From assembly GCA_015061035.1 (NCBI GenBank), contig SUXK01000001.1, forward strand, positions 248,001 through 312,000: 64,000 bases of DNA, given 5' to 3'. This document shows positions 14,297 to 54,381 of this stretch, piece after piece (position 1 is the first letter of the stretch; the number at the start of each line of letters is the position of its first letter). The position numbers and the translations under genes were made by a program. This stretch comes from Bacteroidales bacterium. Its GTDB lineage: Bacteria; Bacteroidota; Bacteroidia; Bacteroidales; G3-4614. The notes under the pieces were generated by a model. That model searched no databases, had not been told where the DNA came from, and saw only the letters and a list, made by a program, of their open reading frames with translations.

Positions 14297-14600
14297 TTAA
14301 ACTTTTTGGTCGCAAAAAGTTACAAAAACTCTCGCACCCGATAAAACAGTCATTCAACTTTTTGTTCGGGAGTCCTACGGACATCCCTCAGTCAAGTCTC
14401 ATTTGCCGTTACATCTATTCTTTCGTTTGCAGGGGCTGTGGAACTCGCTTCGCTCAAACAGTCCTCGCCCTATTTCTGCAAACTTCAAGGCTTTCACTAT
14501 GTTTTATAATGGTGCGAATTTATTTAAACATTACTATAGTTTTCAATGTGATATAATCTTATATATTATATTAAAACTTTTGTTGATTTAAAAAATATTA
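14297..14600. other. Non-coding stretch with a reading-frame relic and GC-rich palindromic patch
   Basis: No convincing gene. A 264-nt open frame from 14293 has no start context and an improbable composition. At 14432-14464 there is an imperfect hairpin (CTGT...ACAG around CTCGCTTCGCTC). The base composition is richer in GC than the flanks. It may be a repeat remnant; with a single copy in the window this cannot be tested here. Confidence 0.35.
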
Positions 14601-14609
14601 ATACTTTTG
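14579..14609 (+). promoter_or_regulatory. Promoter of structured leader, copy A
   Basis: TTTG (14579-14582), 19 bases, TACTTTTG (14602-14609): exact Bacteroidetes consensus. The transcript would begin within the following REP palindrome and run about 395 nt to the first ATG at 15010. Confidence 0.72.
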
Positions 14610-14612
14610 TAA

Positions 14613-14645
14613 GTAGGAATGTTGGCTTGCCACGTCCGTAAAAAA
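14613..14645 (+). repeat. REP-like palindrome, GACGT class
   Basis: GTAGGAATGTTGG-CTTG-CCACGTCCG followed by an A tract; the stem has one bulge and one G-T pair. It forms the extreme 5' end of leader copy A, directly after its promoter. Confidence 0.6.
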
Positions 14646-14687
14646 TAATAATAAAAATAAAAGTAATAACAATCTCATCTTTTGCCT

Positions 14688-14716
14688 CCCTCTCTACAGG
14701 AGAGGGTTGAAGTGAG
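14688..14716 (+). repeat. CCCTCTC/GAGAGGG hairpin repeat
   Basis: CCCTCTC (14688-14694), loop TACAG, GAGAGGG (14700-14706), then TTGAAGTGAG. A close relative, with the tail GGGGTGAGGA, is at 55076-55114, and a decayed one lies at about 45920-45945 in leader copy B. Confidence 0.45.
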
Positions 14717-14745
14717 AAATAATAAATTTTGCCTATGAAACATTA

Positions 14746-14961
14746 GCGTATAGTTGATACGCACATTTTAGATATTGGAAAAAGCGTTTTAGCAATTATT
14801 CTTTCTTCCTAAAAGTTTGGCGACTGAATAGACAGAAAGGAGTAATAGTTAAGATGCTCGTACTATATTGGTACGGGCTTTTAGTTATTCTTCTGTCGAG
14901 GTTGCGCCAAACACCATAGGAAGAGAATAGACTAAAGGTTCCGTGCTTTTTTTATGTGCGT
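14746..14961 (+). ncRNA. Structured leader RNA element, copy A
   Basis: Rod-shaped RNA of about 200 nt. Closing helix ACGCACAT (14759-14766) with ATGTGCGT (14954-14961); conserved internal segment TTTAGATATTGG; helix AAAAAGC with GCTTTTT; helix ATTC..TCTTCCTA with TAGGAAGAGAAT; helix TTTGGCG with CGCCAAA; ACAGAA with TTCTGT; apex GCTCGTAC/GTACGGGC with a 7-nt loop. A hairpin GCGTAT (14746-14751)/ATACGC (14757-14762) overlaps the 5' arm of the closing helix, so the two cannot form together. Copies B and C share the architecture with different helix sequences. It precedes the secreted-protein gene at 15010 by 48 nt. Confidence 0.72.
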
Positions 14962-15009
14962 GTTTTAAATAGGGATAGGAACACTATAATAACTTAAAAA
15001 TACATTAAA

Positions 15010-15504
15010 ATGAAAAAAGTATTGAAAATATTTTACTTTGCTGTATTGTTACAAATATTTATGCCAACTATTTTGGCAACGAACTATATGAATGTATATC
15101 TTACAACACAAGGTTCATTTCAGTCTATTAGTATAGATGAAATAGACAAGATTACCTTTCCCTCTGCAGATGAAGTAAATGTCACAATCTTAGGTGTAGC
15201 AATACCAATGGCAATAGATAATGTAGAGGTTATTACTTTCGGAGATGCCAATATAACAGCCATAGAGGAAATCGAAGTTGAAATATCTGATATAGAGATA
15301 ATCTATTATGGAGACCAACTACGTATTTCAAGTACTGAAGTAATTAATCAAGTTCAGATATACAATATGCAGGGTGTGTTGATACAGTCGTTTGCTCCAG
15401 AAGTAGAAATAGTAACACTTGAAGTAGGTGCTTATTCCAAAGGTGTATATGTAGTAGCAGTACAATCAGGAGAAGAGATAGTAACTAAGAAAATAATAAA
15501 ATAG
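15010..15504 (+). CDS. Secreted protein with T9SS type A sorting domain
   Basis: 164 residues. Signal peptide at about 1-23 (ending PTILA-TN). The middle has the VYLTTQGSFQSISIDEIDKITF pattern, resembling the start of the next protein (VNIYKGSDVLYSLPVAEIDSIKF). The last 75 residues look like a Por secretion-system C-terminal domain: LRISSTEVINQVQIYNMQGVLIQ, a short strand, YSKGVYVVAVQSGEEIVTKKIIK. Exported by T9SS to the surface or medium, by inference. No catalytic domain is recognised; it is nearly all sorting signal. First gene after leader copy A. Confidence 0.78.
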   Translation: MKKVLKIFYFAVLLQIFMPTILATNYMNVYLTTQGSFQSISIDEIDKITFPSADEVNVTILGVAIPMAIDNVEVITFGDANITAIEEIEVEISDIEIIYYGDQLRISSTEVINQVQIYNMQGVLIQSFAPEVEIVTLEVGAYSKGVYVVAVQSGEEIVTKKIIK

Positions 15505-15592
15505 TTGTTGTTCTTGTGTCTTATATATATAACTATTTTATGTATAGTCATTTGTTAATGACACTAAAACTAATAAATTAAAAATATAAAAT

Positions 15593-16291
15593 ATGAAAAC
15601 AAAACTAATCACATTGTTAATAGCAATATTTGCAGTAATAGGCAGTGCTTATACGCAGACAAAAGTAAACATTTATAAAGGAAGTGATGTTTTATATAGT
15701 TTACCAGTAGCAGAGATAGATAGTATAAAATTTGATAAGCAAAAAAACTATAACAAAAATGGTCATGAGTATGTTGATCTTGGTTTGTCTGTAAAATGGG
15801 CAACTTGTAATGTTGGTGCAGATTCTCCTGAAGATTACGGAGATTATTTTGCATGGGGAGAAACATCTTCAAAGGATATTTATTCATCAAAAACCTATAA
15901 TTGCTCTTTGGATGTTTATACAACAACATTGCCATTATTGTATGATGTAGCAAATGTAAAATGGGGTGATGGTTGGCGTATGCCAACTGTAGTTGAGCAA
16001 GAAGAACTAAGAGATACAAACAATTGTATCTGGACGTGGACTACCCAAAATGGAATAAACGGATTTAGAGTAACAAGTAAAAAGAATGGTAATTCTATAT
16101 TTCTTCCTGCTGCGGGTTATCGTTATGAAGGTAACCTTATTTATGAAGGTAATAGTGCAGGGTATTGGTCAAGTTCAATCAATACACAAGGTTACAGTTA
16201 TGCATTTTATATAGCCATTAGTTCGGGTTCTGTAACAGGAGGAAGTAATAATAAATATCTTGGGCACTCTATTCGTCCAGTTTGCGAGTGA
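15593..16291 (+). CDS. Secreted FISUMP/DUF1566-type protein
   Basis: 232 residues with a signal peptide (MKTKLITLLIAIFAVIGSAYTQ). After an N-terminal EIDSIKF segment comes a C-type-lectin-like domain of the Fibrobacter succinogenes major paralogous type: EYVDLGLSVKWATCNVG, YFAWGET, WGDGWRMPT, FLPAAGYR, GYWSSS and SIRPVCE. Such domains act in surface binding or as variable display scaffolds; no enzymatic role is claimed. 88 bp after the T9SS protein, same direction, probably the same transcript from leader A. Two shorter relatives are at 53911 and 54432, downstream of leader copy C. Confidence 0.82.
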   Translation: MKTKLITLLIAIFAVIGSAYTQTKVNIYKGSDVLYSLPVAEIDSIKFDKQKNYNKNGHEYVDLGLSVKWATCNVGADSPEDYGDYFAWGETSSKDIYSSKTYNCSLDVYTTTLPLLYDVANVKWGDGWRMPTVVEQEELRDTNNCIWTWTTQNGINGFRVTSKKNGNSIFLPAAGYRYEGNLIYEGNSAGYWSSSINTQGYSYAFYIAISSGSVTGGSNNKYLGHSIRPVCE

Positions 16292-16370
16292 TTTGCTCTT
16301 AATTAGAAATTAGTGTAATAAAAATTCATATGACTAATAAATAAAGAGGAAGTGCCTCGTGTGTAAAAAA

Positions 16371-16404
16371 AAATAACCATTGCCCTAAAAGCAATGGTTA
16401 TTTT
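16371..16404. terminator. Bidirectional terminator hairpin
   Basis: AATAACCATTGC (16372-16383) and GCAATGGTTATT (16391-16402) form a perfect 12-bp stem with a 7-nt loop, flanked by an A tract and TTTT. It lies between the plus-strand island and minus-strand recA and could serve both. Confidence 0.65.
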
Positions 16405-16449
16405 CATAACTACCAATAATAAATCTCCTAATTTTTTATATTTATCTAA

Positions 16450-16499
16450 AAACTAACAACTACCCAATGGGGCGGCTTTAGCCGACAACTAACAACTAT
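16450..16499 (-). repeat. Two-hairpin repeat starting at the recA stop codon
   Basis: On the minus strand it begins at the recA TAG (16496-16498) with TAGTTGTTAGTTGTC, then the hairpins CGGC-TAAA-GCCG and CCC-CATT-GGG, then GTAGTTGTTAGTT. Related copies are at 17745, 42265, 58069 and 61666, with compensatory changes in the first hairpin. Confidence 0.7.
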
Positions 16500-45810: not shown

Positions 45811-45841
45811 TTTGTAAATTTAAAATTTATTAATACTTTTG
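45811..45841 (+). promoter_or_regulatory. Promoter of structured leader, copy B
   Basis: TTTG (45811-45814), 19 bases, TACTTTTG (45834-45841), same arrangement as for copy A. The leader to the ATG at 46246 is about 398 nt. Confidence 0.72.
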
Positions 45842-45844
45842 CAA

Positions 45845-45876
45845 GTAGGGACGTTGGTTTGCCACGTCCGCAAAAA
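45845..45876 (+). repeat. REP-like palindrome, GACGT class
   Basis: GTAGGGACGTTGG-TTTG-CCACGTCCG and A tract; stem GGACGT/ACGTCC with GG/CC inside and a bulged T. Forms the 5' end of leader B, as in leader A. Confidence 0.65.
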
Positions 45877-45984
45877 AAATAATAATAAAAGTAATAACAA
45901 TCTCATCTTTGAACATCCTTTACGGAAGAGGGCTGGGGTGAGGATAAAAAAAATTTGCCTATGAAATAAAACGTATAATTTAAT

Positions 45985-46183
45985 ACGAACATTTTAGATA
46001 TTGGAAAAGCGTTTGCTGATATTCTTATCCTTGAAACTTCGACACTTTCAAACAACCAAGAATAAAGCGAAGACGTTCATGCTATGTATATGGCGTGGGC
46101 TTTACTCGTTTATCTGGTTGTAAGGTAGTCGAAGACCTCAAGGGTGGATAAATAGAGTTTTGTCCGCGTTTTTTTATGTGCGT
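45985..46183 (+). ncRNA. Structured leader RNA element, copy B
   Basis: Same architecture as copies A and C with different helix sequences. Closing helix ACGAACAT (45985-45992) with ATGTGCGT (46176-46183), one mismatch; conserved TTTAGATATTGG; AAAAGCG facing CGCG and a T tract; TTATCC..TTGA with TCAAGG..GGATAA; CTTCGAC with GTCGAAG; ACAACCA with TGGTTGT; apex GTTCATGC/GCGTGGGC. A 5' hairpin CGTAT/ATACG overlaps the closing helix, as in copy A. 62 nt before the ATG of the small lipoprotein. Confidence 0.72.
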
Positions 46184-46245
46184 ATTTCTCAACTTTTTTA
46201 AGGACATAATATTGATAAGTTTATTTTTTTTTAATTTGATAAAAA

Positions 46246-46401
46246 ATGAAAAAGAATATTTATCGTTTCTTTGTGGTGATAGTTGCTACTACATTGCTAA
46301 GTGTTGCACTTCAAAGTTGTGCTATCTTTAGTGATCCAGCCTACCAAGAATCTTTCAGACAAGGATGGAATTTGACTGCACCTGAAGAATATCGTTACTA
46401 A
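46246..46401 (+). CDS. Very small lipoprotein
   Basis: 51 codons, found by reading the frame after leader B. Begins MKKNIYRFFVVIVATTLLS, lipobox LQSC (Cys at residue 25), then a 26-residue mature peptide (AIFSDPAYQESFRQGWNL...). The good lipoprotein signal and the position right after the leader support expression. Function unknown. Confidence 0.65.
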   Translation: MKKNIYRFFVVIVATTLLSVALQSCAIFSDPAYQESFRQGWNLTAPEEYRY

Positions 46402-46476
46402 TTCATTAAAAACAAAAACGGAGTAAACCGAAAAGCCGATAAGTGAGTAGGAGATATATTTAAAATTTAAATTATT

Positions 46477-53505: not shown

Positions 53506-53537
53506 TTTGGAATTTTATAAATAATTCATTACCTTTG
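53506..53537 (+). promoter_or_regulatory. Promoter of structured leader, copy C
   Basis: TTTG (53506-53509), 20 bases, TACCTTTG (53530-53537). The leader to the ATG at 53911 is about 367 nt; no REP palindrome here, unlike copies A and B. Confidence 0.68.
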
Positions 53538-53622
53538 TAATATAATAAATTAATACTAATCTTTATCCCTTTATATAGAGGATAGAAAAAATGAATGCCT
53601 ATGAGATAATTACTATAGTATA

Positions 53623-53827
53623 ATACATACATCATAGAAATATAGAAAAAAGCGTTTTTGCTAAATTCTTTCTACTCGAAAGTTTGGCGACTAAAGGACT
53701 GACAGGAATAAGGTAAGGATGCTCGTACTTTTAGTACGGGCTTTTGGTTATTCTGTCAGTCCTTTAGTCGCCAAACACCTCGAGTAGAGAATATACTGAA
53801 AGTACCGTGCTTTTTTTATGTGTGTAT
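53623..53827 (+). ncRNA. Structured leader RNA element, copy C
   Basis: The best-paired copy. Closing helix ATACATACAT (53623-53632) with ATGTGTGTAT (53818-53827), one G-T; AAAAAAGC with GCTTTTTT; ATTC..TCTACTCGA with CGAGTAGAGAAT; then 23 perfect pairs from TTTGGCGACT to AGTCGCCAAA (GGACTGACAG facing CTGTCAGTCC); AATAA/TTATT; apex GCTCGTAC/GTACGGGC with loop TTTTA. The ATGCCTATGAGA segment before it echoes TTTGCCTATGAAA of copies A and B. 84 nt before the first ATG. Confidence 0.74.
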
Positions 53828-53910
53828 AAGTTTGTAAAGAAAAAGGTACTAAGAAAAATATTAAATTACAAAAGTAAGTTTGTGTAATAATTTAAAATTT
53901 AGATTTAAAA

Positions 53911-54381
53911 ATGAGAAAACTATTAATATTGAGTTTGTTTGTGCTTACATATGCGACTTTGTCGGCTCAAAACATTATAATACAGCAGAATAATAACCAA
54001 CAGGTACCTAAAGAAAAAATTATAGAGAAGAAAATATATGTCCCAGTAGAGAAGAAAGAAGAACCTAAACAACCAATCTGTTTACATGGTTATTTATATG
54101 TTTTTCCTGAAGATTTGGGATCGTTTAGAGAATATCCTAGAAAAATGATAGAGTCTTTAAATAGATCAAGGCCATATGGACGTGATAATTGGCGATTACC
54201 AACATATGAAGAATTACGATTGATAGCTGAGAATTATGATAAAATAGGAGATGTTAAATATATAGGGCAAATGGGAAGTTTTTATATGCATAGTTATTAT
54301 GGAAATGCTTGCGTTTGTCATACTCATGAATTAGTATCTGGCAATTATGATTATCCAATCCGTCTAGTCTCTACAAATTAG
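53911..54381 (+). CDS. Exported FISUMP/DUF1566-like small protein
   Basis: 156 residues, signal peptide 1-19 (TLSA-QN). A glutamine/asparagine- and lysine-rich linker (NIIIQQNNNQQVPKEK...VPVEKKEEPK) leads to a short C-type-lectin-like domain: ICLHGYLYVFPEDLG, DNWRLPTYEELRLIAENYD and YPIRLVSTN. The WRLPT and IRLV motifs are those of the DUF1566/FISUMP family, but the domain is shorter than at 15593. First gene after leader C. Confidence 0.75.
   Translation: MRKLLILSLFVLTYATLSAQNIIIQQNNNQQVPKEKIIEKKIYVPVEKKEEPKQPICLHGYLYVFPEDLGSFREYPRKMIESLNRSRPYGRDNWRLPTYEELRLIAENYDKIGDVKYIGQMGSFYMHSYYGNACVCHTHELVSGNYDYPIRLVSTN

Follow-up and report, generated by a model that had tools for sequence, protein, structure and literature searches.

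A leader RNA family of Bacteroidales with two mutually exclusive conserved folds, a putative bistable attenuator of exported-protein genes

The window analyzed in this study, a stretch of 64,000 nucleotides on contig SUXK01000001.1 and part of a 1.92-Mb host genome in 16 contigs, carries three copies (A, B, and C) of a leader element, all on the + strand (Table 1). The initial annotation had claimed three elements of approximately 200 nt, and these were found where it had placed them, with the helices and constant segments that it had quoted present on re-reading; the copies are real, but their number and size were underestimated, as the host genome has seven strong copies and the unit extends over approximately 240 bases. 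Its claims that each copy follows its own consensus promoter and lies before the first secreted-protein gene were borne out by a TTTG-N19/20-TAnnTTTG sequence upstream of A, B, and C and by a distance of ~46, 60, and 83 nt, respectively, from the end of the closing helix to the first ORF. An upstream leader of ~110 nt is also common to A and B (14610-14719 and 45842-45939), including GTAAGTAGGAATGTTGGCTTGCCACGTCCG and a GAGAGGG-type hairpin.

Table 1. Features of the three leader copies in the window and of the genes that follow them.
Feature	Position	Strand	Basis or remark
Copy A promoter, TTTG-N19-TACTTTTG	14579..14609	+	sequence; Bacteroidota consensus
Copy A whole leader element, GCCTATG to GGAAC (limits approximate)	14731..14982	+	alignments; covariance model R1, 261 bits over 14731-14967
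Copy A mini-ORF, ATG AAA CAT TAG	14735..14746	+	in-frame stop within 6 codons in 100/100 copies
Copy A hairpin H0, GCGTAT/ATACGC	14746..14762	+	shares a strand with H1 (3′ in H0, 5′ in H1)
Copy A rod fold closed by H1	14757..14963	+	ATACGCACAT (14757-14766) with ATGTGCGTGT (14954-14963)
Copy A alternative fold, 5′ hairpin	14784..14858	+	-24.5 kcal/mol, z -4.85; covariation
Copy A alternative fold, 3′ hairpin (14871-14946) and U7 tract (14947-14953), terminator-like	14871..14953	+	-27.3 kcal/mol, z -4.09
Copy A helix P, GTTCC (14938-14942) with GGAAC (14978-14982)	14938..14982	+	matched versus mismatched strand binding
First gene after copy A, 164 aa, secretion signal and Por_Secre_tail	15010..15504	+	
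Second gene after copy A, 232-aa exported protein	15593..16291	+	weak Lcl_C match
Copy B promoter	45811..45841	+	
Copy B whole leader element, type II sequence	45957..46205	+	covariance model match, 146.7 bits
Copy B mini-ORF, ATG AAA TAA	45961..45969	+	
Copy B 3′ hairpin and U7 tract	46093..46175	+	46092-46168: -27.8 kcal/mol, z -3.4
51-aa lipoprotein ORF after copy B	46246..46401	+	conserved at loci L025 and L026
DUF805b RNA (RF02914), flanked by the lipoprotein ORF and the following exported gene	46418..46453	+	33.5 bits, E 2.7e-6; gathering score 35.6
Copy C promoter	53506..53537	+	
Copy C whole leader element	53597..53849	+	covariance model match, 210 bits
Copy C mini-ORF, ATG AGA TAA	53601..53609	+	
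Copy C 3′ hairpin and U7 tract	53734..53817	+	53734-53810: -21.5 kcal/mol, z -2.4
First gene after copy C, 156-aa exported protein	53911..54381	+	

Across the family, a co-directional ORF begins 20-120 nt after nearly every copy. When the first downstream ORFs were scored by a simple rule, 104 of 134 (~78%) were exported, compared with 102 of 318 (32%) in the background, and their Pfam families were diverse, including Por_Secre_tail, BspA LRR, PEGA, BACON, DUF6567, Lcl_C, and others. Many copies are furthermore followed, ~15-25 nt downstream, by a DUF805b RNA. The element had been suggested to be a cis-regulatory leader or a processed small RNA; with the co-directional ORFs, the exported genes, and the DUF805b RNAs that follow it, the leader fits far better, although a small RNA that arises by processing or premature termination remains possible. 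At six loci, another conserved motif, ACCGATGnGCCGATGGGATATAAC..GGCA, was observed downstream and is DUF805b-like by appearance only.

The gene content behind the leader differs between neighbors. The interval between the genes of a decarboxylase (ornithine/diaminopimelate type) and recA contains the genes for the 164-aa and 232-aa proteins in the host, a different, 109-aa gene in one relative (G005), and no unit in another (G001), where only ~90 nt separate the two genes; the similarity of G005 to the window ends just past GGAAC. Thus, the leader together with its gene behaves as an accessory cassette. Such presence, absence, and replacement of a leader-plus-gene unit within one genus was observed by comparing window positions 14297-16495 with two loci. 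It may be asked whether the element is instead a DNA-level inverted repeat that marks or drives the exchange of accessory gene cassettes, for which the absence of the unit in G001 and the different exported genes in the host and G005 could be cited. This is, however, barely credible, because the G-U pairs, the position after a promoter, the strand-specific orientation to the gene, and the covariation that includes loops point to RNA, and because neither a target-site duplication nor a recombinase was seen. A search of plasmid and phage collections for the element gave no match, which also argues against a mobile DNA element.

Many gut and environmental Bacteroidota carry the leader element. 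Searched at the DNA level, 60 relatives yielded copies within the genus and in three further families of the order, and covariance model R1 matched 125 of 393 genomes of the order; in this order-wide search, the scoring was limited per genome, and the weak tail (~80 bits and below) was not taken as proven, because generic inverted repeats could score there. In named genomes, a pattern scan yielded at least 119 stretches, and the groups among the matches listed were Prevotellaceae, Paludibacteraceae, Alistipes, Muribaculaceae, Tannerellaceae, Dysgonomonas, and Symbiothrix. Dysgonomonas sp. 511 is a cultured bacterium with copies of the element. At two loci, the 5′ hairpin sequence (TTTATTCTGTT..AAAGTTTGCCGACTT) recurs in part immediately downstream of the element. 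In addition to its strong copies, the host genome has five weaker ones. Three weaker relatives of the element in this genome (C13:40578, C2:30157, and C4:314836) are located upstream of an ORF that resembles DNA-cytosine methyltransferases and close to small ORFs of the helix-turn-helix type, all recognized by eye, so that this type of leader may reach beyond exported proteins.

The rod fold (R) was evaluated by folding and by covariation. Compared with dinucleotide shuffles, the folding of A, B, and C gave z values of -7.8, -6.0, and -11.2, respectively, with 0 of 200 shuffles equal or better each time. In an alignment of 29 copies, the rod comprised 63 pairs, of which 27 had changed on both sides, with 90.2% of cells paired, and its covariation score was 0.348 compared with 0.08-0.10 when the partner strand was slid. 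Among ~26,000 column pairs in 93 copies, the 17 with the best covariation all belonged to the rod. The most conserved rod helix is GUUUGGC/GCCAAAC or CUUCGAC/GUCGAAG. The initial annotation had inferred a selected RNA structure and had set covariation in an alignment of many homologs as the test; for the rod, this covariation proved overwhelming. The rod is, however, just one of two conserved folds, and that reading had missed the two-hairpin fold as well as the mini-ORF and the pairing downstream. A coding frame across the 3′ half (MLVLYWYGLL...) was rejected, because indels in the loop break the frame.

The other fold (S) consists of two tandem hairpins, is incompatible with the rod, and has its second hairpin adjoining a conserved U6-8 tract. 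Four strands, of the UAUUC, GAAUA, UAUUC, and GAAUA type, pair as 1:4 and 2:3 in the rod and as 1:2 and 3:4 in the tandem hairpins. On the same 29-copy alignment, S had 89.8% of cells paired, a covariation score of 0.256 compared with 0.09-0.11 for slid strands, and 65 double-change cells compared with 24 in shuffles. In the 93 copies, the strand that precedes the U tract also covaried, at a high rank, with the 3′ strand of the tip. When the two halves of 35 copies were folded separately, they far surpassed shuffles, with a mean z of -2.5 for the 5′ half and -3.8 for the 3′ half. Furthermore, the S strands paired better within than between copies (p<=0.0003), and this held in a less redundant set; the p values for strand matching, for S as for hairpin H0 described below, ignore relatedness. 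The four strands are similar AU-rich repeats, and it could be that part of the S covariation echoes R. Taken together, the comparative analysis established that one sequence family keeps the pairs of two mutually exclusive predicted folds, R and S.

The foot of the 3′ hairpin is GC-rich (GCGUGG/CCACGC type) and lies directly against the U tract. In 70 of 76 copies, the best fold of the 3′ half had its foot on this tract, with a mean of -25 kcal/mol. The tract is 6-8 long in 98 of 100 copies, whereas the A tract varies, although the script that selected the 100-copy set demanded a U tract (run of at least 5). The 3′ hairpin on the U tract in the S fold looks like an intrinsic terminator, a resemblance that is judged from the sequence alone. 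What is expected of a transcription attenuator, namely two exclusive conserved folds of which one is terminator-like and stands before the gene, is therefore met by comparative evidence, which bears on architecture only. For A, B, and C, respectively, R was calculated to surpass S in stability by 8, 19, and 39 kcal/mol, which means that termination would need kinetic trapping or a factor. When growing transcripts were folded, short ones favored the 5′ hairpin, and the best fold then shifted from this hairpin to the rod. The conserved middle helix of the rod coincides with the apical regions of both S hairpins.

At the 5′ end of the element, an invariant GCCUAUG opens a mini-ORF that consists of ATG, zero to five codons, and a stop. 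The stop fell within six codons in 95 of 95 copies and, with a looser pattern, in all 100 copies where it was readable and all 37 sequence clusters, compared with 30% of upstream-flank ATGs and 44% of shuffles. Because codon 2 and the length vary freely between copies, sensing of a particular amino acid or of a stall peptide is not indicated; as regards a leader-peptide mechanism, the short upstream ORF is present, and the expectation of signal-specific codons or a signal-specific peptide was not met. H0 lies directly after the mini-ORF, and its 3′ strand is the 5′ strand of the rod closing helix H1, so that H0 and H1 compete. Both pairings are kept by matched changes (for H0, p<=0.0005), with H0 passing its criteria in 72 of 100 copies and not being found in part of the set. 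A further helix (P) joins the strand before the U tract (GUUCC, GUACC, GUGCC, or GUCC) to a strand 15-40 nt downstream (GGAAC, GGUAC, GGCAC, or GGAC), and the binding of its strands in the 100 copies was -8.25 kcal/mol when matched and -5.19 kcal/mol when mismatched. The comparison of copies thus demonstrated the mini-ORF as a reading frame, the strand sharing of H0 and H1, and the predicted P pairing, the translation of the mini-ORF being inferred only. A second downstream ORF starting in TTTATGTGCGTA was not accepted, with lengths and frames that vary widely among copies, and a CCUAU/AUAGG contact of the mini-ORF with the patch before the A tract or with DUF805b did not covary in general.

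The mini-ORF and its hairpins are the ground of the chief rival explanation, a ribosome-sensing translational attenuator in which the mini-ORF would act as the sensor and H0, H1, and P would alter translation or decay without termination, in the manner of tetQ. The mini-ORF is present in all 100 copies as the first ORF of the transcript, with TAnnTTTG commonly ~35 nt upstream. H0 and H1, which have one strand in common, each show covariation, and tetQ offers a precedent in Bacteroides (PMC5418344). Moreover, H0, H1, and P involve strands that are transcribed later than the U tract or lie away from it, and an output through translation or decay would fit this no worse than attenuation by termination. 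The variable codon 2 and length of the mini-ORF nevertheless speak against this rival, as does the GCCU preceding the ATG, which is not an A-rich start context. Another order of the class, moreover, retains only the core, which was found there in 3 of roughly 290 sampled genomes (four loci). Inspection by eye indicated that these copies keep both hairpins and mostly P and apparently lack the mini-ORF, H0, and H1; S is kept by 3′ stems that differ in sequence yet pair, such as CUAUACUU/AAGUAUAG. Hence, none of these three parts is likely to be the ancestral switch, and we regard the translational attenuator as rather unlikely. The U tract in these copies is mostly poor (UUUCUG), so that the ancestral output in that order may have been something other than transcription termination.

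We propose that the element is a cis-acting bistable attenuator leader for exported-protein genes, a reading that, without transcript, termination, or expression data, we hold with about even confidence. Two incompatible folds and a tiny front reading frame, both kept by evolution, look like a genetic switch. S would be the early, termination-prone state, which is inferred from the 5′ hairpin being the best fold until ~30 nt or more of the 3′ half has been made, and R with P (and H1) would be the stable read-through state. The 5′ hairpin would, if held together, favor termination and, if opened, favor read-through and expression. Because the conserved rod helix coincides with the apical regions of both hairpins, a loop-loop contact of these regions is the likely first step of the conversion of S to R, again by inference. 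In Bacteroidales, a ribosome on the mini-ORF may block H0 and thereby favor H1 and the closed rod, which would couple expression to translation initiation. The output, be it termination, translation, or decay, is inferred, as are the direction of the switch and its signal.

Two other roles deserve consideration. A metabolite or an RNA-binding protein might stabilize S or R, making the element a ligand- or protein-binding riboregulator; the two conserved folds, the conserved unpaired patches, and the regulon-like arrangement of more than 100 copies before exported proteins would be compatible with it. What the downstream genes have in common is, however, export and not a pathway, so that the common pathway expected of a metabolite riboswitch is missing, and no compact conserved pocket stands out from a conservation that is mostly helical, which makes this role quite improbable. 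It may also be possible that the very stable rod protects the mRNA as a 5′ structure or acts in trans as a terminated or processed small RNA. An end at the U tract would yield an RNA of ~230 nt, and many Bacteroides small RNAs derive from 5′ regions. This is very unlikely in our judgment, as a gene follows nearly every copy and as a simple stabilizer would need neither two covarying incompatible folds nor a mini-ORF.

If the attenuator reading is correct, the element could represent a new class of RNA switch, in which the zipping of tandem hairpins into a rod in cis serves as a built-in timer that decides between termination and read-through, gated in Bacteroidales by the mini-ORF ribosome, so that many exported-protein mRNAs of gut Bacteroidota would answer one translation-coupled signal; this wider idea is speculative, and we remain doubtful of it. 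The element appears to be among the commoner structured leader RNAs of Bacteroidales, yet it stands outside every Rfam family. It would name a post-initiation layer of control for small exported proteins and lipoproteins, the means by which gut Bacteroidota contact their surroundings. It also offers a testable model of a loop-to-rod switch in cis, and the conserved mini-ORF makes the link between translation and expression directly testable.

The earlier statement that the element is not a named RNA family agrees with the absence of any Rfam match to it in the window at the gathering threshold, and no family in Rfam 15 matched it in windows and relatives at E values up to 5-10. Weak miRNA-type matches on copy C, far below gathering scores, were chance hairpin matches. 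The DUF805b model (RF02914) did not match the element itself, its matches falling downstream, and the open-access literature that was searched contained no description of the element. Weinberg 2010 lists a Bacteroidetes "GUCCY-hairpin" outside Rfam (PMC2864571), and an overlap of this hairpin with helix P is not excluded. Retrons, bridge RNAs, and omega RNAs were dropped on genomic context alone, because the copies precede exported-protein genes and not transposase or RT genes.

Several known systems bear comparison. 6S-Flavo and other rod RNAs have in common with the element a rod of ~200 nt in Bacteroidota, but the element has no Rfam match, nearly always precedes a gene, and has two folds; 6S-Flavo, Flavo-1, and Bacteroidales-1 were excluded, as they gave no Rfam match at relaxed thresholds. 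The DUF805b and DUF805 RNAs (RF02914 and RF03081) are likewise cis-regulatory RNAs of Bacteroidota, and DUF805b-type RNAs stand directly after many copies. They are nevertheless a separate motif of 35-68 nt, whose two models do not match the element, and the element often occurs without DUF805b. The DUF805 motifs reportedly stem from a 2017 paper. FopS, which is also a multicopy paralogous RNA family in Bacteroides, has a single-stranded 5′ stretch and a terminator hairpin, acts in trans on PUL mRNAs, and is in Rfam (PMC11697453). Identity with this small RNA was rejected, as structure and role differ. E. coli toiL is an analogous uORF sensor of translation stress (PMC12121999).

The tetQ leader resembles the element in that this Bacteroides leader, too, combines alternative pairing with a very short reading frame, but no resistance gene is downstream of the element, the mini-ORF varies from 1 to 6 codons, and the long covarying rod, the terminator-like hairpin, and the many paralogs per genome are its own. 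The tetQ leader (CTnDOT) encodes a three-codon leader peptide. In Bacteroides, tetQ is listed under translational attenuation (PMC5418344). With pT181-type attenuators, the element shares a choice between terminator and read-through that is made by the pairing of a leader hairpin loop. In the pT181 repC leader, the pairing of a hairpin loop with another hairpin decides between terminator and read-through, in a system with an antisense RNA. The two hairpins of the element, in contrast, lie in one RNA, would zip in cis into a single rod, and do not require an antisense RNA. Attenuators of the pT181 kind are treated in PMC4878617. Thus, the attenuator leader is of a known kind, whereas the family, the loop-to-rod design in cis, and the gating by a mini-ORF appear to be new.
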